Source of the DNA: Sandarakinorhabdus glacialis
Lineage (GTDB): Bacteria; Pseudomonadota; Alphaproteobacteria; Sphingomonadales; Sphingomonadaceae
DNA: 64,000 nt
Direction of reading: 5' to 3'
NCBI RefSeq assembly: GCF_014643455.1
Contig: NZ_BMJM01000013.1
Span: forward strand, 1-64,000
This document shows, piece after piece, positions 24,301 to 39,556 of the stretch. The position numbers and the translations under genes were made by a program. The stretch's first letter is position 1. Every line of letters begins with the position of its first letter. Below the pieces are notes generated by a model. The model did no database searches and was not told the DNA's origin. It saw only the letters and a program-made list of their open reading frames with translations.

Positions 24301-24377
24301 TGGTGCGCCCGGAACGATTCGAACGTCCGACCCTCAGATTCGTAGTCTGATGCTCTATCCAGCTGAGCTACGGGCGC
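24301..24377 (-). tRNA. tRNA-Arg (anticodon ACG)
   Basis: On the minus strand the sequence folds as a complete cloverleaf. The acceptor GCGCCCG pairs with CGGGCGC, the D-arm is AGCTCAGCTGGATAGAGC, the anticodon stem-loop is CAGACTACGAATCTG with anticodon ACG, the T-arm contains GTTCGAATC, and the discriminator A is followed by an encoded CCA. ACG is read as inosine-CG after deamination and decodes CGN arginine codons. It lies upstream of the helicase gene in the same direction. Confidence 0.97.
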
Positions 24378-27216: not shown

Positions 27217-27923
27217 GTCCCGCCGAACCCATCGATTTTCGGCGCCGGACGACCTTGCCGGAGCGGATGGACGCCGAGGATCTCGACCCGGCGACGTACG
27301 CGGCGCTGATCGCCGATCTTGCCCGCGTCAACACCGTCACGCTGGCGCGGCGGCCGACGCTGGCGTGGCTGGGGCGGGCAACGCGCGATTCGGGCAGTTT
27401 CAGCCTCGTCGATATCGGGTTCGGCCATGGTGACATGTTGAGGGCGATCGCCCATTGGGCGCGCAGGAACGGCAAAGCCGCGCGGCTGGTCGGCGTCGAT
27501 CTCAACCCGCGCAGTGCTCCGGTCGCGGAAGCGGCAACGGGGCCTGACCTCGGCATCGAATTTTTGACCGGCGATGCTGCGCAGCTCGATTTCACGCCCG
27601 ATTTCATCATCTCGTCGCTCGTGGCGCACCACATGGAGGACGACGAGCTGACCGCCTTTCTGCGCTGGATGGAGGCGACGGCGGCGCGCGGCTGGTTCAT
27701 CAACGATCTCCACCGCCACCCGATTGCCTGGGCGGGCTTCGGCCTGCTCTCGAACGCGCTCGGCTGGCATCCGATCGTCCGGCACGATGGCGCGCTGTCG
27801 GTGCGGCGCGCCTTCGTCCGTGCCGATTGGGACCGGCTGCTGACTGCTGCCGGGCTTACGCAACCACCAGTCGCAATCCGCTGGCACATTCCCTTCCGCT
27901 GGGGCGTCGGGCGCCTGAAATGA
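27213..27923 (+). CDS. Class I SAM-dependent methyltransferase
   Basis: The 236-residue protein has the Rossmann-like methyltransferase core: motif I LVDIGFGHGDMLRAI, then LVGVDLNPRS at the acidic strand-2 end, and motif IV region DFIISSLVAHHMEDDEL. The N-terminus FRRRTTLPERMDAEDLD is typical of the group that accompanies bacterial type III polyketide synthases. It starts inside the PKS stop codon (ATGA) and ends inside the start of the flavoprotein gene (ATGATG). It probably methylates the PKS product on oxygen or carbon. The exact position is not inferable. Confidence 0.87.
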   Translation: MSPAEPIDFRRRTTLPERMDAEDLDPATYAALIADLARVNTVTLARRPTLAWLGRATRDSGSFSLVDIGFGHGDMLRAIAHWARRNGKAARLVGVDLNPRSAPVAEAATGPDLGIEFLTGDAAQLDFTPDFIISSLVAHHMEDDELTAFLRWMEATAARGWFINDLHRHPIAWAGFGLLSNALGWHPIVRHDGALSVRRAFVRADWDRLLTAAGLTQPPVAIRWHIPFRWGVGRLK

Positions 27924-29020
27924 TGCAGCCGGTCATCATCGGCGGCGGTCTGGCGGGCGGCAGCGTGGCGACCCGGCTGGCGCAGCTTGGCCACGCGCCG
28001 GTCCTGCTCGAGCGCGAGCCCGGCGCCCACGACAAGATCTGCGGCGAATTTCTCAGCGTCGAAGCCTCGCGTCACCTTGCTGCCATCGGCTTCGATGTCG
28101 CGCGGCTCGGCGGCGCGCGTATCGACACCATGCGGCTTCATGTGGGTGGCCGCACCGCCGAGGCGCGGCTGCCGTTCGTCGCCACCGGCATCACCCGCCG
28201 CAGCCTCGATGCGGCGCTGCTCGACCACGCTGCCGCCGCCGGGGCGGAGATTCGGCGCGGCATCAGCGTTCGGCATATCGACGAGGGCCGCGTCGTCACC
28301 GCCGAGGGCGAGATCGGCCGCGGCCCGGTCATTCTCGCCACCGGCAAGCACGAACTCCGCGGCGAGGCGCGCGACCCCGCCGGCACGATCGCCGACCTGA
28401 TCGGCTTCAAGCAATTCTTCCGCACGACCCCGGCGCTGTCGCGCGCGCTCGCCGGCGCGGTTACTGTCACCGCCTTCGATGGCGGCTATGCCGGGCTGCA
28501 ATGCGTCGAGGGCGGGAGGCTCAACCTGTGCCTGCTCGTCGATCGTGCCCGCTTCAAGGGCGCTGGTAGCTGGGAAGCCCTGTTCGCCGCGCTCGTCCGC
28601 GAACCCGGTCTCGCCTTGCTCGCCGATGCCGAGCCGCTGCTGCCCAGGCCCCTGACCATCGCCGCCGTCCCCTATGGCTATCTCGCGACCCCCGCCGCCG
28701 GCGACCCGATCTGGCGGCTCGGCGACCAGGCTGCCGTCATCCCCAGCTTCTGCGGCGACGGCATGGCGATGGCCCTCCACGGCGGGCGCCTCGCCGCCGA
28801 CATGCTCGCCGCCGGTGCCGCGCCGCACCACTTTCAGGCCCGCCTGCGCCGCGACGTGTCCCGGCAGGTCCGCCTCGCCATCGCCGTGCAACGCTTTGCC
28901 GGCACCCGCGCCGGGCGGTTTGCCCTCGTCGCCGGTCTCGCTGCCGTTCCCGCCGCGCTGTCGGCACTCGCCCGCTGGACGCGCGTCGAGACATCGGCGG
29001 TCGCCCGCGCCGGCGCCTGA
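27920..29020 (+). CDS. FAD-dependent oxidoreductase (geranylgeranyl-reductase/hydroxylase type)
   Basis: The 366-residue flavoprotein opens with the dinucleotide-binding motif VIIGGGLAGGSVATRLA (GxGxxG at residues 8-13), then LLEREPGAHDKICGEFLSVEA as in geranylgeranyl reductase relatives. The second FAD motif follows at RLGDQAAVIPSFCGDGMAMAL. It is the third gene of the PKS operon. In the comparable Streptomyces srs operon a flavoprotein hydroxylates the resorcinol ring to a hydroquinone, so ring hydroxylation or reduction of the polyketide product is the best guess. A small C-terminal helical region follows the FAD domain. No downstream terminator was identified before the receptor gene at 29120. 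Confidence 0.87.
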   Translation: MMQPVIIGGGLAGGSVATRLAQLGHAPVLLEREPGAHDKICGEFLSVEASRHLAAIGFDVARLGGARIDTMRLHVGGRTAEARLPFVATGITRRSLDAALLDHAAAAGAEIRRGISVRHIDEGRVVTAEGEIGRGPVILATGKHELRGEARDPAGTIADLIGFKQFFRTTPALSRALAGAVTVTAFDGGYAGLQCVEGGRLNLCLLVDRARFKGAGSWEALFAALVREPGLALLADAEPLLPRPLTIAAVPYGYLATPAAGDPIWRLGDQAAVIPSFCGDGMAMALHGGRLAADMLAAGAAPHHFQARLRRDVSRQVRLAIAVQRFAGTRAGRFALVAGLAAVPAALSALARWTRVETSAVARAGA

Positions 29021-29119
29021 TAAATTATATCGTCATTCAAACAGTTTCGGGGGATTCCACCGTCCCCTTTCGTTAAGGACGTGCCGGCACCACCGCATCG
29101 GCTTGGGAATCGCATCAGC

Positions 29120-31885
29120 ATGAGTCTCGGCAAGTCCCCCGGGGTCGCTGGGTCACGGGCCCTCTCCCCGCTCTGGCTGGCAGCGTTCATCGCGGTTCCG
29201 CTCCATGCCCAGACGGCTCCCGATACAGCACCCGCTGCCGCCGCCGCGGCAAATCCCGACGATGTCGAGGATGACGAGATCACCGTCACCGCGCAGCGCC
29301 AGCGCGGTACCGTGCTCGGTGATATCGCCCCCGAAGTGCAGCTCGGGCCATCGGACATTCGCGCCATCGGCGCCGGCAGCATCGAGGAACTTCTCGCCGT
29401 GCTTGCCCCGCAAACCACCAGCGGGCGCGGCCGCGACGGCGCCGGGCCGGTCACCCTCGTCAACGGCAAGCGCATCTCGAGCTTTGCCGAAATCCGCACC
29501 ATCCCGCCCGAAGCGATCGAACGCATCGATATCCTGCCCGAGGAAGTCGCGCTCAAATACGGCTATCGCGCCGACCAGCGCGTCGTGAACTTCGTCCTCC
29601 GCGAGCGTTTCCGCGCGCTGACCAGTGAGGTCGAATTCGGCGGGCCCACTGCCGGCGGGCGCAGCAGCTACGAGGCCAAGGGCAATATCCTGCGCATCCG
29701 CAAGGGTGTCCGCATGAGCATCGAGGGCGAATACACCATCGACACCATGCTCCTTGAAAGCGAGCGCGACATCCTGCCGGTGCGCCTGCGCCGGCCGTAC
29801 GACCTTGCCGGCAACATCACTGCCGCTCGCGTCGGCGACGAGATCGACCCGAGCCTGAGTGCACTCGCCGGCACGGTCGTCACGGTCGCCGGGGTCCCCG
29901 CCGGTGCCGCCGGCGGCGCTCCCGGCCTGCCCAGTTTCGTCCCCGGCGCCAACAACGCCAATGTCACCGACATTTCGCAATACCGCTCGCTGTTGCCCGA
30001 AACTCGCGCGCTCAAGTTCGGCGGCGTCTATGCCGGCGCCATCGGCGACACGCCGGCGACGATCACCGCCGGGTTCGAATCGACGAGCAGCGAAAGCCGC
30101 CTCGGCCTGCCGGCGGTCGTGTTGGTCCTGCCCGCCGCCAACCCCTATTCGCCGTTCTCGGTCGATACGACGCTCAACCGCTATGGCACCGGGGCGCTGG
30201 TGCGATCGAGCGACAGCTGGACCGGCCGCATCGGCACTGCGATCAACGGCCGCGTCGACACCTGGAACTGGAACGTCACTGCCAACTACAGCCATTCCGA
30301 AAGCGACCAGCTGACCGACCGCAGGCTCGACCTGCTGGCCGTGCAGAACCGCATCCTGGTGGGCAACACCAGCCTCAACCCGTTCGGCCCGCAAGCTGTC
30401 ACCGGCGCACTTGTCCAAGACATCGCCAAGAGCAATACCGATGTCGCCGACGCCGATATCGTCACCAACGGCTCGCTGTTCGCGCTGCCGGCCGGCGACC
30501 TGACCGCGACCTTCAAGTTCGGCGGCTCGGCGCGCAGCATCGGGTCGGAATCGCGCTGGCTGGGGATCTACAACACCACCAGCCTGTCGCGGACGCAGGG
30601 CAATTTTCAGGGCAATTTCGACCTGCCCATCGCCAGCGTCCGCAACGATACGCTGTCGGCCATCGGCAATCTGTCGGCCAATCTCAACATCGCCTATGAC
30701 CAATTGTCCGATTTCGGCACGCTGCGCACCATCGGCTATGGCCTGACCTGGCGACCGATCGACTCCATCAGCCTGATCGCCTCGGCCACCCATGAAGAAG
30801 GCGCGCCGACGATCCAGCAGCTCGGCAACCCCACCCAGGTGACGCCCAATGTCCGTGTCTTCGATTTCATCGCCGGCACCACGGTCGATATCTCGCGCGT
30901 CGACGGCGGCAACCCCACGCTCGTTGCCGACAACCGCCGCGTCTTCAAGCTCGGCGCGACGATCAAGCCGCTGAGCGGTGCCGACCTGACGCTCATCGCC
31001 AATTTCGTCGACAGCCATATCGACAACTCGATCGCCGCCTTCCCGACCGCAACCGCCGAACTCGAGGCCGCCTTTCCGGGGCGCTTCATCCGCGACGGCG
31101 AGGGCCGGCTGTTGCAGATCGACAATCGCCCGGTCAATTTCGTCAGCTCGGACCGGCAGGAATTGCGCTGGGGGATCAATTTCTCCGAACCGCTCGAACC
31201 CAGCAAGGCCGAGCGCGACGCCGCGGCCACCCGCCGCGCCGCCTTCGAGGCGCAGCGCGCCGCAGGGGGCGCACCCGGCGCGCCGGGCGGTCCTAGCGCC
31301 GCTGGCTCACGCGGCGATCGCCCCGCGGGCGGTTTCGGCGGCCCCGGCGGCCCGGGCGGCGGTCGCCCCGGCGGTCGGGGCGGCCTCGATGGCCGGCTGC
31401 AACTGTCGATCTTCCACACCTGGCATCTCCAGGAACAGCTCGTCATCCGCGACGGCGTGCCGGTGCTCGACCTGCTCAACGGCTCGGCGACGGGTAACAG
31501 CGGCGGCGAACCCCGCCACGAGATCGAGGCGCGCGCCGGCATCGGCAAGAACGGCCTCGGCGCCCGGCTCAGCGTCAATTGGCAAAGCGCCACCAGCGTG
31601 CTGCGCGATCCGACCGGCGCCACCACCTCGCCCGACGACCTGTTCTTCTCGAGCCTCGCGACCGTTAACCTGCGGCTGTTCGCCGATCTCGGACAGCGCC
31701 GCAGCCTGGTCGCCAAGGCGCCATTTTTTCGCGGCAGCCGGATCAGCCTCGGCATCGACAATATCGCCGACGCCCGGCTAAACGTCCGCGACCGCGAGGG
31801 CGTCGTTCCGATCAACTATCAGCGCGACATCATCGACCCGCTCGGCCGCACGGTAACGCTGTCGTTTCGGAAACTGTTTTTCTAG
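29120..31885 (+). CDS. TonB-dependent receptor with Gly/Pro-rich insert
   Basis: The 921-residue protein has a signal peptide (LWLAAFIAVPLHAQ), TonB-box-like DDEITVTAQRQRG, a plug with GSIEELLAVLAP, GPVTLVNGKRISSFAEIRTI and PPEAIERIDILPEEVALKYG, and a barrel ending GRTVTLSFRKLFF. Within the barrel, at about residues 712-756, lies a low-complexity Gly/Pro/Arg-rich stretch that must form a long flexible loop. This receptor class is common in sphingomonads, and the ligand is unknown. It follows the polyketide operon by about 100 bases. ATG 29120 is chosen because it opens the signal peptide. A link to export or uptake of the polyketide product is possible but not shown. Confidence 0.88.
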   Translation: MSLGKSPGVAGSRALSPLWLAAFIAVPLHAQTAPDTAPAAAAAANPDDVEDDEITVTAQRQRGTVLGDIAPEVQLGPSDIRAIGAGSIEELLAVLAPQTTSGRGRDGAGPVTLVNGKRISSFAEIRTIPPEAIERIDILPEEVALKYGYRADQRVVNFVLRERFRALTSEVEFGGPTAGGRSSYEAKGNILRIRKGVRMSIEGEYTIDTMLLESERDILPVRLRRPYDLAGNITAARVGDEIDPSLSALAGTVVTVAGVPAGAAGGAPGLPSFVPGANNANVTDISQYRSLLPETRALKFGGVYAGAIGDTPATITAGFESTSSESRLGLPAVVLVLPAANPYSPFSVDTTLNRYGTGALVRSSDSWTGRIGTAINGRVDTWNWNVTANYSHSESDQLTDRRLDLLAVQNRILVGNTSLNPFGPQAVTGALVQDIAKSNTDVADADIVTNGSLFALPAGDLTATFKFGGSARSIGSESRWLGIYNTTSLSRTQGNFQGNFDLPIASVRNDTLSAIGNLSANLNIAYDQLSDFGTLRTIGYGLTWRPIDSISLIASATHEEGAPTIQQLGNPTQVTPNVRVFDFIAGTTVDISRVDGGNPTLVADNRRVFKLGATIKPLSGADLTLIANFVDSHIDNSIAAFPTATAELEAAFPGRFIRDGEGRLLQIDNRPVNFVSSDRQELRWGINFSEPLEPSKAERDAAATRRAAFEAQRAAGGAPGAPGGPSAAGSRGDRPAGGFGGPGGPGGGRPGGRGGLDGRLQLSIFHTWHLQEQLVIRDGVPVLDLLNGSATGNSGGEPRHEIEARAGIGKNGLGARLSVNWQSATSVLRDPTGATTSPDDLFFSSLATVNLRLFADLGQRRSLVAKAPFFRGSRISLGIDNIADARLNVRDREGVVPINYQRDIIDPLGRTVTLSFRKLFF

Positions 31886-31946: not shown

Positions 31947-32933
31947 GTGGGACTCGGTGATTTCTTCAGGAAGCAGCTGGTCGACGTCATCGACTGGACC
32001 GACGAACCCGGCGTGCTCGGGGTGCGCTACCCGATCGCCGACCGCGAGATCCAGCACGGCGGGCAACTGACCGTCCGCGAAGGGCAGGCGGCAATCTTCA
32101 TGACCGAGGGCCAGGTCGCCGACCGCTTCGGCGCCGGCCAGCACACCCTCGATACAGCGACGCTGCCGCTGCTGTCGTCGCTCGAAAACTGGAAGACAGG
32201 CTTCCAGGCGCCGTTCAAGTCCGACGTCTATTTCTTCTCGCTGCGCCAGCAGATCGACCGGAAATGGGGCACCACCCAGCCGATCACCCTGCGCGACAAG
32301 GATTTCGGCACGATCCGTTTGCGGGCTTTCGGCCGCTATGGTTTCGCCATCGCCGACCCGGCAAAATTCTTCGATACGCTGATGGGCAACCTCGAGCGCT
32401 ACACCGTCGACGAAGTCGAACCTCAACTCCGCGCCGCGATTGCCACCGGCCTCGCCGCCAAGCTGGGCGCGGGCGAGGTGCCGTTTCTCGATCTCGCCGC
32501 CAACCAGACCCTGTTGTCCGACACGCTCAAGGCCGCCATCGCCCCGGCGTTCGAGCAATATGGCCTCGCGCTCTCCAGCTTCTACGTCGAAAGCCTGTCG
32601 CTGCCCGAGGAAGTCCAGGCCGCGATCGACAAATCCTCGTCGATCCGCGCGCTGGGTGACCTAGACGCCTATACCAAGTTCCAGGCCGCCGAGAGCATCA
32701 GCGTTGCAGCCGCCAACCAGGGCGGCGTGGCCGGCATCGGCGCCAGTGCGGCGGCCGGCATGGCGATCGGTTCGGCGATGTCGGGCGGGCTGCAAAGCGC
32801 AGCTCCCGCCGCCGCAGCACCAGCCGAGGACCCTTTCGTCGTGATCGGCAAGCTCCACACCCTGATGACCGCCGGTGCCATCACCCAAGCCGAGTTCGAC
32901 GCCAAGAAAGCCGCGCTCCTCGCGAAAATCTGA
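31947..32933 (+). CDS. SPFH/Band-7 domain protein with SHOCT tail
   Basis: The 328-residue protein resembles the virion-core/YdjI-type SPFH family. It starts GLGDFFRKQLVDVIDW, has QHGGQLTVREGQAAIF and DVYFFSLRQQIDRKWGT, and continues with LRAFGRYGFAIADPAKF and the helical region SLPEEVQAAIDKSSSI. The C-terminal 35 residues (DPFVVIGKLHTLMTAGAIT, EFDAKKAALL) form a SHOCT oligomerisation motif after an Ala/Gly-rich linker. No transmembrane helix is evident, so it probably scaffolds at the membrane by oligomerising. The GTG at 31947 has GGGAGA six bases upstream. It is the first gene of a run of eight on this strand that ends with AdoMet decarboxylase. Confidence 0.85.
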   Translation: MGLGDFFRKQLVDVIDWTDEPGVLGVRYPIADREIQHGGQLTVREGQAAIFMTEGQVADRFGAGQHTLDTATLPLLSSLENWKTGFQAPFKSDVYFFSLRQQIDRKWGTTQPITLRDKDFGTIRLRAFGRYGFAIADPAKFFDTLMGNLERYTVDEVEPQLRAAIATGLAAKLGAGEVPFLDLAANQTLLSDTLKAAIAPAFEQYGLALSSFYVESLSLPEEVQAAIDKSSSIRALGDLDAYTKFQAAESISVAAANQGGVAGIGASAAAGMAIGSAMSGGLQSAAPAAAAPAEDPFVVIGKLHTLMTAGAITQAEFDAKKAALLAKI

Positions 32934-32965
32934 TGCCGAACTTGGGGGAGCCTCTCTTTTCTTCC

Positions 32966-32989
32966 CCCCTCCCTACTTCTAGGGAGGGG
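32966..32989. repeat. GC hairpin in the SPFH-DUF4178 gap
   Basis: CCCCTCCCT (32966-32974) pairs with AGGGAGGGG (32981-32989) across a 6-base loop. It matches the style of the hairpin at 20400-20420. It might attenuate transcription between the first and second genes of the cluster. Confidence 0.55.
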
Positions 32990-33024
32990 TCGGGGGCGGG
33001 TATCTTCCTTCCATCCCGCCGAAA

Positions 33025-33705
33025 ATGACCACGCTCTGCCCGAACTGCGGCGCCGAAATCACCTTCCGCTCGATCGGCCTCTCTGTCATCGTCTGCGACT
33101 TCTGCCGCAGCACGATCCTGCGCAGCGGCGATGTCCTGTCGATCATGGGCACCGCCGCCACCGTCCCCGACACCATCAGCCCGCTCCAGATCGGCACCAC
33201 CGGCGTCCATAACGGCGCAAGCTTCGAGCTCATCGGCCGTGTCCGCTGGAGCTGGAGTGAGGGCGAACAAATCATGGGCGGCTGGACCGAATGGCTGGCG
33301 CTGTTCGCGGACGGCAGCCACGGCTGGCTCGCCGAAGCGATGGGCCGCTACATGCTGACCCGCCGCATCGACGCCGTCGGTGACCCCATCCTCAAGGCGG
33401 TGGCCTGGGGCGAACCCCTCACCCCCGGCGACGGCGCCGATCTCGCCGGCAGTTCCTATGCGATCACCGACGCCCGCCCGGCGACCGTCGTCGGCAGCGA
33501 CGGCGAACTGCCCTTCGCCGCACCCAAGGGCGAAACCGTCTTCAGCGTCGACATGATCGACGGCGCCGGCGGCTGTGCCAGCGTGCAGAAACACGGCGAC
33601 AACGTCTCCGCCTATGTCGGCCGCTACGTGGCGCTGTCCGACCTGCAACTACGCAACCTGCGCAAGATCGAAGGCTGGCCCCCGCCGGCCTGGGCCGCCG
33701 CGTGA
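33025..33705 (+). CDS. DUF4178 protein with N-terminal zinc ribbon
   Basis: The 226-residue protein starts with a zinc ribbon (Cys5-Pro-Asn-Cys8 and Cys24-Asp-Phe-Cys27), followed by the DUF4178 beta-rich domain. The latter includes LQIGTTGVHNGASFELIGRV, then WTEWLALFADGSHGWLAEA and, late, FSVDMIDG. No transmembrane segment is seen, so this is the soluble partner of the next gene, which encodes a second, membrane-bound DUF4178 protein. The stop overlaps that gene's GTG start (GTGA). The function of DUF4178 is not known; its consistent place next to polyamine enzymes and DUF350 suggests a membrane-associated assembly. Confidence 0.85.
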   Translation: MTTLCPNCGAEITFRSIGLSVIVCDFCRSTILRSGDVLSIMGTAATVPDTISPLQIGTTGVHNGASFELIGRVRWSWSEGEQIMGGWTEWLALFADGSHGWLAEAMGRYMLTRRIDAVGDPILKAVAWGEPLTPGDGADLAGSSYAITDARPATVVGSDGELPFAAPKGETVFSVDMIDGAGGCASVQKHGDNVSAYVGRYVALSDLQLRNLRKIEGWPPPAWAAA

Positions 33706-34937
33706 AGGACGACCCCGGCGCTCCCCGCGCGCTGACCTGCCCCAATTGCGGCGCGCCGATCATTGTCCGCGCCGCCGGGCTCACCGTCTCCGTCATCTGC
33801 GGCAATTGCGGCAGCACACTTGACGCCGCTGATCCCGTCCTCACCCTCATCGAGCGCAGCAACGCCGCCCTCGCCCGGCCACTGATCCCGCTGGGCTCGC
33901 GCGGCAGTCTCGACGGCATCGAATGGGAGGTCGTCGGCTATCTCGAACGCAGCGGCGACGACGTCGAATGGGAAGAGTATCTGCTCTTCAACCCGTGGAG
34001 CGGCTATCGCTTCCTCATCCATGTCGAGGGCAATTGGCGCCTCGGCCAGGCGCTCGATCGCCTGCCGCGCCTCGACGGCGGTACCGCCCTCCTGGACGGC
34101 GATGCCTATCGCGGCAGCGACCCCTATAACGCGCGGGTCGATTTCGTCGTCGGCGAATTCTACTGGCGCGTCAGCGTCGGCGAGACGGTCGCCGCCACCG
34201 ACTACAGCGCCGGCGGGACCAGCCTGTCACGCGAGGACAATGCACAGGAATCGAGCTGGACCCAGCTCAAGGACTTGCCCCCCGGCACGGTCGGCAAGGC
34301 GTTCGGCCTCACCCCGCCGCTCGGCGCCGGCAAGACCGCCAACACCGCCTGGCGTGACTTCGTCCACAGCCTGATCATTGCCGCCATCGGCTTCGCCGCG
34401 CTCCTTGTCGTGCTGGTTGCCGCGCCGGCTTCGCAACTCATTGCGCAGGATACGCTGCTGCTCGAACCCGAAGGCCCGGCCATCACCCGCGTCATCGGCC
34501 CGGTCGAAATCCAGCGCCGCAGCAGCGCCGTCGAGGTCCGCGCCACCACCGAGGTCGAAAACGCCTGGGTCGACCTCGGCTACGCGCTTGTCGAGCGCCG
34601 CACCCAGCAACGCTTCGAAGCCAGCGCCACCGCCGAATACTACAGCGGCAGCGATGCGGACGGCAATTGGTCCGAAGGCGACAAGCGCCCCGCATCATTG
34701 TTCGCCAGCATCCCGCGCGGCAGCTACGACCTCGTCGTCGAGGCGCGCGCCAAGCAATGGGGCGGTTCGTTCGGCGGATCGCAGCCCTCCGTCGCCGTCA
34801 CCATAGGCATCGTCCGCGATACCGGCTTCGGCGGCCTGTTCCTGTTCGCTGCGATCATGCTCGCCATCGGCCCGGCATGGCGCGCGTGGCGCCTTTACAG
34901 CAGCGGCGCCGGCCCCGACCGGGACACGACCTGGTGA
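33702..34937 (+). CDS. Membrane-bound DUF4178 protein
   Basis: The 411-residue protein repeats the layout of its neighbour: a zinc ribbon (Cys13, Cys16, Cys33, Cys36) and a DUF4178 domain (IPLGSRGSLDGIEWEVVGYL, EWEEYLLFNPWSGYRFL). It adds a transmembrane helix at about residues 222-245 (LIIAAIGFAALLVVLVAA), a beta-rich extracytoplasmic-type domain, and a second helix near residue 385 (GLFLFAAIMLAIGPAWRAW). Both ends are thus likely cytoplasmic with the beta domain outside. It starts with GTG inside the previous stop and its own stop overlaps the next GTG, which shows tight translational coupling. Confidence 0.85.
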   Translation: MKDDPGAPRALTCPNCGAPIIVRAAGLTVSVICGNCGSTLDAADPVLTLIERSNAALARPLIPLGSRGSLDGIEWEVVGYLERSGDDVEWEEYLLFNPWSGYRFLIHVEGNWRLGQALDRLPRLDGGTALLDGDAYRGSDPYNARVDFVVGEFYWRVSVGETVAATDYSAGGTSLSREDNAQESSWTQLKDLPPGTVGKAFGLTPPLGAGKTANTAWRDFVHSLIIAAIGFAALLVVLVAAPASQLIAQDTLLLEPEGPAITRVIGPVEIQRRSSAVEVRATTEVENAWVDLGYALVERRTQQRFEASATAEYYSGSDADGNWSEGDKRPASLFASIPRGSYDLVVEARAKQWGGSFGGSQPSVAVTIGIVRDTGFGGLFLFAAIMLAIGPAWRAWRLYSSGAGPDRDTTW

Positions 34938-35110
34938 AGTTCACCAACATCCTGTTCGCGCTCTGGTGCCTCGCCGTCGTCGCGCTGTTCGCCTTGGCCG
35001 TCGATCGCGGCTATTCGCCATTTGCGCAGGGCGGCGGGCCCGGCGGTCGCGGCGGGTTCTTCTTCTTCGGCGGGTTCGGTGGCGGCAGCTCCGGTCCACG
35101 GCACAAATAA
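34934..35110 (+). CDS. 58-residue membrane protein with Gly/Phe-rich tail
   Basis: This very small gene begins with GTG overlapping the preceding stop (GTGA) and ends TAA at 35110. The product has one hydrophobic helix (NILFALWCLAVVALFALAV), then a Gly-rich tail containing FFFFGGFGGGSSG. No family is recognised. The overlap at its start and the fact that the frame exactly fills the space before the DUF350 gene support it as real. Its role in the cluster is unknown; a small membrane subunit is likely. Confidence 0.7.
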   Translation: MKFTNILFALWCLAVVALFALAVDRGYSPFAQGGGPGGRGGFFFFGGFGGGSSGPRHK

Positions 35111-35152
35111 TTCACCCGGGGCAGGGGGCCCCGCACCAAAGGAGGACGCCCG

Positions 35153-35362
35153 ATGCTCAGCCTGTCCGTTTTCGCCGCGTCGCTGCTCTATGCGTTCGTC
35201 GGTATCGTCATCTTCGTCCTTGGTTTCCGCATCTGGGACTGGCTGACCCCGACCGACGTCTGGAAAGAAATCGCCGAGCGCGGCAACATCGCGCTCGCCA
35301 TCCTCGCCGGCGCGGTCGCGATCGGGCTCGCGATCATCATCGGCAGTGCCATACATGGCTGA
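35153..35362 (+). CDS. DUF350 membrane protein (YjfL-like)
   Basis: The 69-residue protein has two hydrophobic helices (SVFAASLLYAFVGIVIFVLG and IALAILAGAVAIGLAIIIG) joined by a short polar loop, DWLTPTDVWKEIAERGN. This matches a single DUF350 unit; longer YjfL proteins have more copies. AGGAGG lies just upstream of the ATG. Its end overlaps the start of the spermidine-synthase-like gene by eight bases. DUF350 proteins occur in the Escherichia coli yjf locus beside a glutathionylspermidine-synthetase-like gene (from memory), which is a second link between this small membrane protein and polyamines. Confidence 0.88.
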   Translation: MLSLSVFAASLLYAFVGIVIFVLGFRIWDWLTPTDVWKEIAERGNIALAILAGAVAIGLAIIIGSAIHG

Positions 35363-36878
35363 TGCCCCCACCGGCGCCCGCGACCTGGCGCCGGTGCTGC
35401 TGTTTTCGGCCTTTGTCGTCGCCACCTGCGGGCTGGTCTACGAACTCCTCGCCGGCACCCTCGCCAGCTATTTGCTCGGCGACAGCGTCACGCAATTCTC
35501 GACCGTCATCGGCACCTATCTGTTTGCCATGGGCATCGGCGCGTGGCTCTCGCGCTACGTCACCGCCAACGAGCTCGCTGTCTTCGTCCGCACCGAAATC
35601 CTCATCGCGGCGATTGGCGGCAGCTCGGCGGCATTGCTGTTCCTGCTCTTCGACCGCGTCGGCGATTTCCGGCTGCCGCTTTACGGCCTCGTCCTGATCA
35701 TCGGCACTCTCGTCGGCCTCGAGATCCCGCTGCTCATGCGCATCCTCAAGGACCGCCTCGAATTCGGCGACCTGGTCTCGAAAGTCCTGACCTTCGACTA
35801 TATCGGCGCCCTCGCCGCGTCGCTGCTGTTCCCGCTCGTCCTCGTCCCCCATCTCGGCCTGATCCGCACCGGCTTCCTGTTCGGCCTCGCCAATGTCGGC
35901 GTCGCGCTGGCGATGCTGTGGATGCTCCCCCAGGCGTCGAGACTCCGCGGCGAGATGGCGGCCGGCATCCTCGTCGCCATCGCGCTCGTCGCCGGGCTGT
36001 TCAGCGCCGAACGCCTGCAACGCCTCGCCGAGGTCGCCGCCTATCAGGCGCCGATCATCCACGCCGTCTCGACCCCCTACCAGCGCATCGTGCTGACCCG
36101 CCGGAACGACGATGTGCGGCTGTTCCTGAACGGCAACCTGCAATTTTCGAGCCGCGACGAATATCGCTACCACGAGGCCCTCGTCCACCCGGCGCTCGGC
36201 CGCATCGCCCATCCCGCAAACGTGCTCATCCTCGGCGGCGGCGACGGCCTCGCCGCGCGCGAGGTCCTCAAATATCCGGGCGTCCGGTCGATCACCCTCG
36301 TCGATCTCGACCCGGCGATGACCCGGCTGTTCACCGATGCGCCGATGCTGGCGGCGCTCAACGGCAACGCCCTGCGCTCGCCGAAACTGATCATCGTCAA
36401 CGCCGACGCGTTCGTGTGGCTGCGTGCCAACCAGCGCCGCTTCGGCGCCGTCATCGTCGATTTCCCCGATCCGACGAACTTTTCGATCGGCAAGCTCTAC
36501 ACCCTCAGCCTCTACCGCGAGCTGGCGCGCGCCATCGCGCCGGGCGGCATCGCGGTCGTGCAGAGCACCTCGCCGCTGGTCGCCCCCAACGCCTATTGGA
36601 CCGTCGCCACCACCCTCGAGGCGGCCGGGCTGACGACGCGCGGCTACCACGCCTATGTGCCCAGCTTCGGCGAATGGGGCTTCATCCTCGCCGCGCACGG
36701 GGCCATCGCCGACGCTGTCGCCCTGCCGCCCGGCCTGCGGTTCCTCACCCCGCGCACCGCGGCGCTGGCGTTCGATTTTCCGCCCGACATGGCGCGCCGG
36801 CCGACGCCGGTGAACCGTCTCGACAACCAGGCGTTGGTCCGCGCCTTCGACGCCGAATGGAGCCGGGTGGAAGGCTGA
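35355..36878 (+). CDS. Membrane-anchored spermidine-synthase-like aminopropyltransferase
   Basis: The 507-residue protein has an N-terminal block of about seven hydrophobic helices (residues 10-215) fused to a spermidine-synthase fold. The catalytic part has a beta-stranded entry (YQRIVLTRRNDDVRLFLNG, then EYRYHEALVHPAL), the cofactor loop ILGGGDGLAAREVLKYPGV with LVDLDPAM, and the active-site acid motif VIVDFPDPTNFSIGKLY. Such enzymes transfer the aminopropyl group of decarboxylated AdoMet to an amine acceptor. AdoMet decarboxylase is encoded two genes downstream, which fits. The acceptor may be membrane-bound rather than free putrescine. ATG 35355 is preferred over GTG 35346. Confidence 0.88.
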   Translation: MADAPTGARDLAPVLLFSAFVVATCGLVYELLAGTLASYLLGDSVTQFSTVIGTYLFAMGIGAWLSRYVTANELAVFVRTEILIAAIGGSSAALLFLLFDRVGDFRLPLYGLVLIIGTLVGLEIPLLMRILKDRLEFGDLVSKVLTFDYIGALAASLLFPLVLVPHLGLIRTGFLFGLANVGVALAMLWMLPQASRLRGEMAAGILVAIALVAGLFSAERLQRLAEVAAYQAPIIHAVSTPYQRIVLTRRNDDVRLFLNGNLQFSSRDEYRYHEALVHPALGRIAHPANVLILGGGDGLAAREVLKYPGVRSITLVDLDPAMTRLFTDAPMLAALNGNALRSPKLIIVNADAFVWLRANQRRFGAVIVDFPDPTNFSIGKLYTLSLYRELARAIAPGGIAVVQSTSPLVAPNAYWTVATTLEAAGLTTRGYHAYVPSFGEWGFILAAHGAIADAVALPPGLRFLTPRTAALAFDFPPDMARRPTPVNRLDNQALVRAFDAEWSRVEG

Positions 36879-38470
36879 TGCTGACCCGCCGTTCCCTGCT
36901 GGCGACGCCCGCACTCGCCGTTCCGGGCTGCAGCTTTCTTGGCGCTCTCCCCGGCACCCTGTCGGGCGCCGACATGGCACGCGGGCATCTGCTCCGCACC
37001 CCGTTCGCCGCCGGCACCCCCGCCGAAACCCGTCGTACCAAAATTGCCATCATCGGCGGCGGTATCGCCGGGCTCAGCGCCGCCTTCACCCTCGCCGAGG
37101 CCGGCCACCGCGACTTCCGCCTGTTCGAGCTCGAGGACAGCGCCGGCGGAAACTCGCGTGCCGGCCGCAATGCCGTCTCGGCCTATCCGCTCGGCGCGCA
37201 CTATTTGCCGATCCCCAACCCCGAATCATCGGGCGTCCGCCATTTCCTCGAGCGTATTGGCACCATTACCGGCTGGCAGGGCGGCAAGCCCGTCTTCGAC
37301 CCCTATCAGATTGTTGCCGACCCCGAGGAACGCATCCTCCACCTCGGGCGCTGGCAGGAGGGCCTGATCCCCGCAATCGTCCCCGACGCCGACCGCGCCG
37401 ACCTCGCCGCGTTTTTCGCCGCCATGGACCGCTTCCGCGATCACAAGACCAGCGACGGTCGCCGGGCCTTCGCCATCCCGATGGACCTGAGCAGCCGCGA
37501 TCCCGACCTGCGCGCCCTCGACGCACTGAGCTTCACCGCCTGGCTCGACGCGCGAGGCTGGTCCACCCCGACGCTGCGCGCCCACCTCCGCTATTGCACC
37601 CGCGACGAATACGGCACCGAGCCCGGCGAAGTCTCGGCTTGGGCGGGCATCCATTATTTCGCCGCCCGGCGCGGTGAAGCGGCGAATTGCGCCGGCGATG
37701 CGGTGCTCACCTGGCCGGCGGGCAACGGCTATCTCGCCGCCGCGATGGCGCGCCGCGTTGCCGGCCATATCGAACCCGGCATCGTCGTCGCCGCTGTCCG
37801 CACCAGCGGTGACGGCGCCCAAATCGACGCGCTCGATGTCGCCAACCGCCGCCGCATCCGCATCCTTGCCGACGCCGCCATCATCGCGTTGCCCCGCTTC
37901 GTCGCCGCGCATGTCGTCGCGGGCGCCTCGGCAAAAGGTTTCGGCTATTCGCCATGGGTCGTCGCCAACGTCACCGCTGATCGCCTGCCGGCAGGGCAGG
38001 GTGCCAAGCTCGCCTGGGACAATGTCTCGGCCACCAGCGATTCGCTCGGCTATGTCGTCGCCACCCACCAGGGCCTCGCCGCCGTGCCGGGGCCGACCGT
38101 GCTGACCTGGTACACGGCGCTGTCCGACATGACGCCCGCCACAGCGCGCACCCTGATGACCGATCGCCCGCTGGCCGATTGGCAGCGGATCGTCCATGAC
38201 GATTTGATGGCGATGAATCCCGATCTTGCCGGCGCCATCCGCCGCATCGACGTCTGGCGCTGGGGCCATGCCATGGTCCGCCCGGTCCCCGGCTTCTTCT
38301 TCGGCGGCGCACGCGAAAACGCCGCAAAATCGGCGCCGCCGCTATTCAACGCCCATTCCGACCTCAGCGGGCTCTCCATCTTCGAGGAAGCCCATTTCCG
38401 CGGCAGCACCGCCGCCGAAGCCGCCATGACCCACCTCGGTTTCGCGCATGTATCGGTCCACACCGCATGA
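36878..38470 (+). CDS. Exported FAD-dependent amine-oxidase-like flavoprotein
   Basis: The 530-residue protein starts with a Tat-like signal (LTRRSLLATPALAVPGCSFL). The Cys after ALAVPG also makes a lipoprotein possible. The FAD-binding start IAIIGGGIAGLSAAFTLAEA, then FELEDSAGGNSRAG, is typical of flavin monoamine oxidases and phytoene-desaturase relatives. Later FAD contacts are at GNGYLAAAMARRVAGHI and near the C-terminus (SIFEEAHFRGSTAAEAA). The start overlaps the stop of the aminopropyltransferase gene by one base, and the stop overlaps speD by four. Oxidation of a polyamine or polyamine conjugate at the membrane outer face is the natural guess; this is inference. Confidence 0.85.
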   Translation: MLTRRSLLATPALAVPGCSFLGALPGTLSGADMARGHLLRTPFAAGTPAETRRTKIAIIGGGIAGLSAAFTLAEAGHRDFRLFELEDSAGGNSRAGRNAVSAYPLGAHYLPIPNPESSGVRHFLERIGTITGWQGGKPVFDPYQIVADPEERILHLGRWQEGLIPAIVPDADRADLAAFFAAMDRFRDHKTSDGRRAFAIPMDLSSRDPDLRALDALSFTAWLDARGWSTPTLRAHLRYCTRDEYGTEPGEVSAWAGIHYFAARRGEAANCAGDAVLTWPAGNGYLAAAMARRVAGHIEPGIVVAAVRTSGDGAQIDALDVANRRRIRILADAAIIALPRFVAAHVVAGASAKGFGYSPWVVANVTADRLPAGQGAKLAWDNVSATSDSLGYVVATHQGLAAVPGPTVLTWYTALSDMTPATARTLMTDRPLADWQRIVHDDLMAMNPDLAGAIRRIDVWRWGHAMVRPVPGFFFGGARENAAKSAPPLFNAHSDLSGLSIFEEAHFRGSTAAEAAMTHLGFAHVSVHTA

Positions 38471-38856
38471 CGGTCACCCCCAACGGCACCCACCTGCTCG
38501 CCGATCTCTACGGCTGCCAACACCTCGCCGACCCAGCCGCCATCGAGGCCGCGCTGCGCGCCGCTGTCGCCGCCGCCTGCGCCACGCTGGTCGACATCCG
38601 CCTCCACCATTTCGGCCCGGCCCAAGGCGTTACCGGCGTCGCCTTGCTCGCCGAATCGCATATCTCGATCCACAGCTGGCCCGAACATGGCTACGCCGCC
38701 ATCGACATCTTCCTGTGCGGGGCAGCCCATGACATCAAGGGCGCGCTGTCGGCACTGGTGACAGCGTTGGAAGCCGAATCGGTGACCAGCCATATCTTCA
38801 CCCGCGGCATGGCCTCGACCGCAGGCCATATCCAATTTCCTGTCAGCCCGGGGTGA
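38467..38856 (+). CDS. speD: S-adenosylmethionine decarboxylase proenzyme
   Basis: The 129-residue protein matches the short bacterial/archaeal AdoMet decarboxylase (SpeH-type). It has the self-cleavage site ESHISIHSWPE with Glu63-Ser64 (Ser64 becomes the pyruvoyl group), the proton donor His69, and Cys84 in IDIFLCG. It makes decarboxylated AdoMet, the aminopropyl donor for the enzyme encoded two genes upstream. The start overlaps the preceding stop (ATGA). It is the last gene of the eight-gene cluster, which ends eleven bases before a convergent cysteine-hydrolase gene. No ornithine or arginine decarboxylase gene is present here, so the amine acceptor must come from elsewhere. Confidence 0.93.
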   Translation: MTVTPNGTHLLADLYGCQHLADPAAIEAALRAAVAAACATLVDIRLHHFGPAQGVTGVALLAESHISIHSWPEHGYAAIDIFLCGAAHDIKGALSALVTALEAESVTSHIFTRGMASTAGHIQFPVSPG

Positions 38857-38866
38857 CAGTATATGT

Positions 38867-39466
38867 TTACTCCAGCGCCGCCAGGAACGCCGTGTGCGAC
38901 ATCGGCCGCGAGAACATCGCGAAGTCCTTGGCGACCGCCATCTGCTGTTCTTCCTCGCTGAGAGTCGCGGTGCAATCGGTGATCGTCGCCACCTGGTAAC
39001 CGCGCTCATATGCCGACCGCATCGTCGATTCGACGCAGCAGTTGGTCAGGAAACCGGCGATGGCGACATCGGTGATGCCTCGCGCCCGGAGGATGAAGTC
39101 GAGGTTGGTGCTGGCAAAACAGTCGAGTCCGCGCTTGCCCTCGATGACGATGTCATAACCCTGCGGCTTCATCTCGTCGACGATTTCGGCGCCCCAGCCG
39201 CCCTTCTTGAATGCCGCCGATGCGACGATGCCGGCGAGGATGCCATAGGGTTCGGCGGGAATTTCGGGATAGCCGGGCGCAAAGGAAATCGGCACGTGCA
39301 TGATGCAGACGCCGGCCTCGCGTGCCGCCTGCAACAGATGCTGGCTGAGGGTAAACATGTCGGTGCTCGCCATCACGTCCTTGACACCGTCGTGGAGGGC
39401 GCCGCCTTCCTTGACGAAGTCATTCTGGTACTCGATCAGCACCAGCGCAGTGTTTTTCGGGTTCAT
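38867..39466 (-). CDS. Isochorismatase-family cysteine hydrolase
   Basis: The 199-residue protein has the Asp-Lys-Cys triad of the family: Asp in LVLIEYQNDF, Lys in VIEGKRGLDCF and Cys in FLTNCCVESTMRSAYERGY. The cis-peptide motif before the Cys is also present (IAGFLTN). Members hydrolyse amides, carbamoyl groups or isochorismate. AAGGAG upstream supports ATG at 39466 and gives the normal family length. It is convergent with speD and lies 90 bases downstream of the alpha-hydroxyacid oxidase gene on the same strand. The substrate cannot be inferred. Confidence 0.88.
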   Translation of the reverse strand: MNPKNTALVLIEYQNDFVKEGGALHDGVKDVMASTDMFTLSQHLLQAAREAGVCIMHVPISFAPGYPEIPAEPYGILAGIVASAAFKKGGWGAEIVDEMKPQGYDIVIEGKRGLDCFASTNLDFILRARGITDVAIAGFLTNCCVESTMRSAYERGYQVATITDCTATLSEEEQQMAVAKDFAMFSRPMSHTAFLAALE

Positions 39467-39556
39467 CGCGAATTCTCCTTGCGAGTCCGCGGCGCCGGCG
39501 GATCGGGGCCGACAAATAGCCGCTGCCCCGGATGCGGGCAACGACCCGCTTCGGGC

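Follow-up and report, generated by a model that had tools for sequence, protein, structure and literature searches.

A conserved C-terminal lysine on a membrane tail as candidate acceptor of a membrane-fused aminopropyltransferase

The stretch of DNA analyzed here, called the window, is 64,000 nucleotides (nt) long and comes from Sandarakinorhabdus glacialis (contig NZ_BMJM01000013.1, positions 1 to 64,000). It contains a cluster of eight open reading frames (ORFs), all on the + strand and spanning 31947-38856, seven of which are closely packed. The cluster encodes a fusion of seven transmembrane (TM) helices to a SpeE-like aminopropyltransferase, an S-adenosylmethionine (AdoMet) decarboxylase (SpeD), a flavin adenine dinucleotide (FAD) protein, SPFH, DUF4178, and DUF350 proteins, and a small single-TM protein that ends in lysine, referred to as the tail. 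For such operons, the main gap is the substrate to which the SpeE fusion transfers its aminopropyl group. Sequence comparisons lead us to propose that the acceptor is the ε-amine of the tail's C-terminal lysine, a reading to which we assign a probability of about 0.57. The invariant end residue of the tail narrows the gap to one mass-spectrometry experiment.

Relatives were taken as the 80 best matches to the window SpeE fusion, a set that covers many phyla and is biased toward close relatives; locus counts here and below ignore kinship, and the loci are related to differing degrees. The comparable set consists of 75 of these loci plus the window, and the five left out (L029, L038, L043, L056, and L068) lack the remaining cluster or meet a contig end. 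Every comparable locus (76 of 76) has a tail whose last residue is Lys (74 His-Lys, or HK, and 2 Gly-Lys, or GK). In 68 of them, a small single-TM ORF with an HK end lies between the membrane DUF4178 gene and the DUF350 or SpeE gene. Six loci without such an ORF (L063, L066, L076, L078, L079, and L081) have a DUF4178 ORF that itself ends in HK after a Gly/Ser-rich tail; for L066, the fused tail and its TM segment were confirmed by reading the full sequence. The last two loci are acidobacterial, and their tails have the ends ...TGK and ...GGK.

Beyond the TM segment and the final residues, the tails have little similarity by eye. Among relatives, the HK-stop is encoded by all 12 possible codon/stop combinations, and thus selection acts on the protein end. 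The carrier can be a small TM protein, a DUF4178 fusion, or a ~300-aa lipoprotein-like protein, and the Lys end is constant across them. A Lys-ended membrane tail is almost certainly a core component of the system. As judged from these sequences, the tail class is widespread, predicted to be membrane-anchored, and hypervariable apart from its Lys end.

An even sample of 398 Pseudomonadota genomes included 44 with an over-cutoff fusion, one of them the window's. The tail was examined at all 44 other over-cutoff fusion loci, which come from 43 genomes, and a Lys-ended tail protein is found in 44 of 44. A fixed rule (motif plus TM segment) recovered 39 of these in the neighborhood, and the other five (L122, L132, L133, L152, and L155) were located through the genome positions of DUF350 and judged by eye. 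DUF350 lies 10 kb from the fusion in genome G207, where the tail ends ...GGGHK, and on another contig in G164, G052, and G057, whose tails end ...GVGK, ...GGGK, and ...RGGK, respectively. In G074, a tail-bearing DUF4178 gene with the end ...GGAHK is situated just beyond the first neighborhood edge. At L146, L150, L151, L157, and L178, the motif rule also caught unrelated HK ORFs, and the tail counted is the RGK, GGK, or FGK end by DUF350. The fixed rule finds a Lys tail in 0 of 20 ordinary SpeE loci, which were hand-picked from below-cutoff matches.

Position gives a similar picture. TM ORFs that adjoin DUF350 or SpeE end in Lys in 89 of 120 cases, versus 93 of 1165 elsewhere in the same loci. 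With this adjacency rule, whose "near" count omits ORFs matching a cluster hidden Markov model (HMM), 102 of 141 loci show an ORF that ends in Lys. A stricter tail rule, restricted to Gly/Ser-rich TM ORFs (60 of 102 end in Lys), was dropped because linkers vary and many tails were therefore missed. At L119, L123, and L162, the SpeE fusion is ~2.4 to 4.8 kb away from DUF350, and the tail still adjoins DUF350; the L162 fusion (genome G389) was matched in two pieces.

Lys-ended tails also occur in other phyla. In Bacteroidota, 12 of 198 genomes have an over-cutoff fusion (one already known), and 9 of the 11 other loci have the tail. The corresponding counts are 22 of 25 loci for Acidobacteriota and 5 of 6 for Verrucomicrobiota, obtained with the motif rule unchanged, without the TM filter, on ~1.5-kb flanks, and with phyla named after the titles of the seed-locus records. 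Three of the four misses in these two phyla lie at contig edges (L252, L257, and L261), and the fourth, L243, has no DUF350 or DUF4178 nearby. L243 and L257 belong to one genome, and neither DUF350 nor DUF4178 was seen in either locus. All five plasmid loci have a Lys-ended tail (HGK, HK, NRVK, ESGK, and SSGK). On a plasmid of Alteromonas mediterranea (L168, 5944-12602), the order is SpeE fusion, SpeD, a hypothetical protein, a toxic anion resistance protein, DUF4178, a 510-aa protein ending ...PSSGK, and DUF350. The plasmid searches returned no actinobacterial (DUF4247-type) operons, and Actinobacteria are outside the sampled draws.

A related system offers a comparison of tail ends. The E. 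coli DUF1190 proteins YjfM and YgiB end ...GHWGG and ...RSMGG, and their neighbors YjfC and YgiC are annotated in RefSeq as peptide-spermidine ligases (see Pederick et al. 2023). Like the window cluster as we read it, this system has DUF350 (in the yjf operon), a membrane-anchored Gly/Ser-rich tail, and polyamine chemistry at a peptide. However, an ATP-grasp ligase replaces SpeE, and the tails mostly end in Gly-Gly (GG), whereas the window tail ends ...GPRHK. Among 14 DUF1190 proteins in 150 genomes (L181-L194), 10 end in GG and those at L189, L191, L193, and L194 do not. A YjfC/YgiC homolog is present inside the 3.5-kb locus in 12 of the 14, and 9 of those 12 proteins end in GG. Glutathione also ends in Gly. 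No PF03738 ligase (GSP_synth, the glutathionylspermidine-synthetase type) was found among the eight cluster proteins plus two neighbors (E 0.01).

Two Bacteroidota loci, L229 and L230, have the fusion with SpeD, a PF03738 GSP_synth ligase, and a protein with a TM segment (by eye) that ends ...TRSYGG. These regions (6183-9533 in L229 and 6177-9530 in L230) naturally combine the SpeE type with the ligase type; within 16.5 kb, the HMMs detect no DUF350 or DUF4178, and no Lys tail was seen. Thus, the fusion does not need a Lys tail when a ligase is present. Taken together, the tail end tends to track the predicted enzyme: mostly GG with a ligase, which couples amines to the carboxylate at a C-terminus, and Lys with an aminopropyltransferase and no ligase. 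Of all the evidence, this tracking argues most strongly that the tail tip is the enzyme's substrate and not a site for docking.

An AlphaFold model of the SpeE fusion, built from position 35346 (predicted local distance difference test score, pLDDT, 88.8), has seven long helices followed by a SpeE fold. The SpeE part matches aminopropyltransferases in PDB, and its fold and catalytic-type motifs are conserved. By both sequence and fold, the nearest solved relatives of the catalytic domain are thermospermine synthase ACL5 and the Thermus triamine/agmatine aminopropyltransferase. These two enzymes were solved without a TM part and act on free amines. Every one of the 129 fusions aligned (129 of 129) has more Lys plus Arg in the loops that join helices 2-3, 4-5, and 6-7 than in those on the opposite side (means 9.2 versus 3.2); the N-terminus, on the same side as these loops, contributes a further 3.1, a value that includes misassigned starts. 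By the positive-inside rule, this bias would place the C-terminal SpeE domain outside the cytoplasm, and the aminopropylation reaction probably occurs there too. The HK tails lean toward an N-in/C-out orientation, and in the DUF4178 fusions the tail comes after a zinc ribbon expected to lie in the cytosol.

The flavoprotein is well supported as having an amine-oxidase fold, because its AlphaFold model (pLDDT 93.6) comes closest to monoamine oxidase A, protoporphyrinogen oxidase, putrescine oxidase, and spermidine dehydrogenase (SpdH). Of 86 relatives, 73 have an Arg-Arg export motif by a lenient pattern and 35 have a lipobox; the scoring of the export motif left out L062, where no Rossmann motif was found, and flavoproteins scoring below 150. 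In the 44-locus Pseudomonadota draw, a flavoprotein lies within the locus in 10 of 13 HK loci versus 0 of 31 non-HK loci (Fisher p 1e-7, with kinship ignored and classes assigned by hand). As far as these sequences indicate, the flavoprotein is tied to the HK subtype, not absolutely. A strict coupling is ruled out by L075 (...GGK) and L164 (...HGK), which both carry a flavoprotein. Loci with the GR[IV]K tail subtype (L134, L135, L137, L139, and L140) all lack one. RGK, GGK, and SGK tails sit on other carriers, and Shewanella-type operons use ~300-aa lipoprotein-like carriers.

These elements can be combined into a protein-modification system. SpeD would produce decarboxylated AdoMet (dcSAM), from which the fusion would move the aminopropyl group to the ε-amine of the C-terminal Lys on a membrane-anchored, mostly Gly/Ser-rich tail. 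The Lys side chain would act as a tethered analog of putrescine or cadaverine, and the resulting side chain, (CH2)4-NH-(CH2)3-NH2, would have the spermidine pattern, giving a spermidine-like tip. If so, both the SpeE type and the ligase type would arrive at a tail tipped with a polyamine. The seven-helix part, with invariant acidic residues (E33, E126, and D151) that fall within the modeled helices, may let dcSAM reach an extracytoplasmic active site; alternatively, the tail may be modified before export. Where the tail is of the HK subtype, oxidation or removal of the added group is probably the task of the exported flavoprotein, and the SPFH, DUF4178, and DUF350 proteins may organize the site at the membrane.

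Several points weigh against modification of the tail lysine. The cosubstrate dcSAM is made in the cytosol, whereas the tail and presumably the SpeE domain are outside. Charge gives only moderate support for the orientation of small HK tails (N-in/C-out in 43 of 74, opposite in 14, equal in 17). The Lys conserved at the C-terminus could instead serve for docking. No Lys tail was seen within 16.5 kb at L229 or L230. The tracking of ends with enzymes is imperfect as well, given that L189, L191, and L193 have a ligase homolog yet no GG end, and that L185 ends in GG with no ligase seen within its 3.5 kb. Some limits concern how tails were recognized: with its TM filter, the fixed rule recovers no more than 62 of the initial 80 loci, the remaining tails having been identified by position, and the xK part of the rule was set after the first xK tails had been seen. 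The ordinary-SpeE control, the five-genome test, and the Acidobacteriota and Verrucomicrobiota draws were run after that rule was set. Finally, the flavoprotein has no Lys in any invariant or nearly invariant column. Monoamine and polyamine oxidases use a catalytic Lys, and thus the flavoprotein's chemistry may differ from theirs.

The alternative that survives best is that the SpeE fusion aminopropylates a lipid or small molecule, with the Lys tail as an unmodified structural or sensory partner that docks in SpeE, DUF350, or the flavoprotein. A lipid-only acceptor, by analogy with an MprF-like synthase plus flippase, was our first idea; it was demoted once the tail was seen. The SpeE domain directly follows the TM helices, docking peptides also show an invariant C-terminus, and L229 and L230 keep the fusion with no Lys tail seen. 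However, pure docking does not predict that the end residue tends to track the enzyme class. The Lys end also persists across different carriers. We consider this alternative unlikely.

The gene set itself has been described. Ravi et al. 2024 (PMC11237479) report it, including a variant in which AdoMet decarboxylase and polyamine oxidase accompany a band-7/SHOCT protein. They cite Li et al. and propose "aminopropylation of other substrates," which they connect with membrane dynamics. Thus, the cluster itself is not new. The 7TM-SpeE fusion, DUF350, DUF4178, AdoMet decarboxylase, and amine-oxidase-fold protein of the operon in those passages are all present in the window, and compared with the band-7 variant, whose band-7 protein has 2TM and SHOCT parts at its C-terminus, the window has a strong band-7 match and a SHOCT match under the cutoff. 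The word "lysine" has 0 occurrences in the main text of PMC11237479 (supplements not covered), and its passages are without a small tail or C-terminal lysine; a lipoprotein of a SpeE operon, Ctha_1186, is named there with its C-terminal end not given. Across the literature searched (titles and abstract openings, supplements not covered), we found no identified acceptor and no mention of the tail or its lysine. What appears to be new here is the conserved Lys end of a small tail, which gives a specific acceptor candidate.

The same authors propose another reading, in which the cluster is an envelope-stress module, similar to the phage shock protein (PSP) system, that senses polyamine level, with aminopropylation as a signaling output on unspecified substrates (PMC11237479). 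An SPFH protein is present in the window cluster, and PspA partners occur in other operon subtypes according to those passages. However, this reading leaves the invariant C-terminal Lys unexplained, and as a rival we regard it as improbable; it is compatible with tail-lysine aminopropylation as the physiological purpose of that modification.

The window fusion is distinct from the fused major facilitator superfamily (MFS)/spermidine synthase of model NF037959, against which it scores 30.7 bits (cutoff 40); it passes the PRK03612 model instead. For an MFS-spermidine synthase fusion with its AdoMet decarboxylase, Li et al. 2019 (Biochem J 476:2579) reportedly found a functional decarboxylase and a linkage to DUF350. 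They are said to have proposed an acceptor other than putrescine, not identified, and a polyamine-independent role for the decarboxylase. Ordinary polyamine synthesis, in which the cluster makes spermidine or a relative under tuning by membrane proteins, is very improbable: it would fit the folds of SpeD and SpeE, whose catalytic-type motifs are conserved, and the NCBIfam label of the window fusion, "polyamine aminopropyltransferase," but the cluster has no amine-forming decarboxylase, a likely separate route lies elsewhere in the genome, the window SpeE is a 7TM fusion whereas that of the ordinary spermidine synthase pathway is soluble, and Li et al. reportedly found no spermidine and no complementation by their fusion.

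This likely separate route came from a genome-wide search. Spermine_synth and AdoMet_dc have one match each in the genome, both inside the cluster. Orn_Arg_deC_N has two, both outside the cluster, one of which is a diaminopimelate decarboxylase over the cutoff. The second (on G000:C2) is read as ornithine decarboxylase-like (ODC-like), with NCBIfam matches under the cutoff. The gene immediately downstream of it encodes a protein of the deoxyhypusine-synthase family that exceeds the cutoff of NF002699 (1,9-bis(guanidino)-5-aza-nonane synthase). Thus, triamine synthesis in the source organism seems, from its gene content, to be independent of dcSAM. The gene pair (L118 5630-8067) points to a possible guanidino-homospermidine route. 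An earlier note on this DNA had reported no ornithine or arginine decarboxylase, which holds for the cluster genes but not for the genome. Its argument against bulk polyamine synthesis gains support from the sole SpeE and SpeD matches and the apparent separate route, and its membrane-bound acceptor can be refined to a candidate, the C-terminal Lys of the 58-residue protein. That note's view that no function is settled fits the literature found, yet the gene set and the idea of aminopropylating other substrates were already in passages of PMC11237479.

A broader proposal is more tentative, and we hold it at somewhat below even odds. In at least four bacterial phyla, a membrane-fused enzyme would use dcSAM across the membrane for extracytoplasmic Nε-aminopropylation of a C-terminal Lys; this route and that of the ligase systems, in which most tails have a Gly-Gly end, would be two convergent DUF350-linked ways of making a polyamine-tipped tail that is anchored in the membrane. 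If true, this would be a new protein modification, carried out by a polyamine enzyme located outside the cytoplasm. DUF350 operons of the SpeE and peptide-spermidine-ligase types would then share one theme, polyamine-tipped envelope tails.

The cluster components are listed in Table 1. All eight ORFs of the one-strand cluster described in the earlier note were found at their positions. From the second gene onward, the junctions are, in order, GTGA, GTGA, a 42-nt gap, overlaps of 8 nt and then 1 nt, and ATGA, so that its description of GTGA/ATGA or few-base overlaps is borne out with the gap as the exception. The gap, upstream of DUF350, contains AAAGGAGG. A further 91 nt separate the SPFH gene from the first DUF4178 gene. 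The linkage of the cluster exceeds chance: in the 80 SpeE-fusion loci, HMMs seeded by window proteins (window subtracted) detect SPFH in 42, DUF4178 in 75, DUF350 in 70, the FAD protein in 75, and SpeD in 56. The conserved neighborhood that the earlier note had proposed looking for in other genomes is kept in 75 of the 80.

Table 1. Components of the window gene cluster.
Feature	Position	Strand	Evidence
SPFH/Band-7 protein, 328 aa, GTG start	31947..32933	+	PF13421 (Band_7_1) E 4.1e-70
Zinc-ribbon DUF4178 protein, 226 aa, without apparent TM segment	33025..33705	+	PF13785 43.8 bits (over cutoff); CxxC pairs by eye
Zinc-ribbon DUF4178 protein, 411 aa, two apparent TM segments (by eye)	33702..34937	+	PF13785 55.2 bits (over cutoff)
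Single-TM tail protein, 58 aa, C-terminus ...GPRHK; proposed aminopropyl acceptor	34934..35110	+	C-terminal Lys conserved across relatives
CAC AAA codons (His-Lys), TAA stop directly after at 35108-35110	35102..35107	+	Read in sequence
DUF350 membrane protein, 69 aa, half-length	35153..35362	+	PF03994 55.9 bits; aligns to model positions 3-66 of 133
7TM-aminopropyltransferase (SpeE-like) fusion, 507 aa	35355..36878	+	NF002956/PRK03612 646.8 bits, cutoff 472
Tat-type FAD protein, amine-oxidase fold, 530 aa	36878..38470	+	PF01593 (Amino_oxidase)
S-adenosylmethionine decarboxylase, 129 aa	38467..38856	+	PF02675 (AdoMet_dc) E 3.9e-34; TIGR03330 over cutoff

The SHOCT match at the C-terminus of the SPFH protein reaches 22.7 bits, under the cutoff of 27. 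The AdoMet decarboxylase is one that we take to be class 1b. No Pfam or NCBIfam family was found for the window tail protein (E 0.01 and 0.1, respectively); among other tails, two had no NCBIfam family and eight no Pfam family. DUF4178 had no PDB match by sequence.

Upstream of the cluster on the same strand (27905-31885) are a FAD_binding_3/DAO-type oxidoreductase and a large ORF (29081-31885), which by eye resembles a TonB-dependent receptor with a Gly/Pro-rich stretch. An isochorismatase-family hydrolase (38867-39541, minus strand) is directly convergent with the cluster end. The sole tRNA gene called by ARAGORN in the window is a tRNA-Arg with anticodon acg (24301-24377, minus strand).

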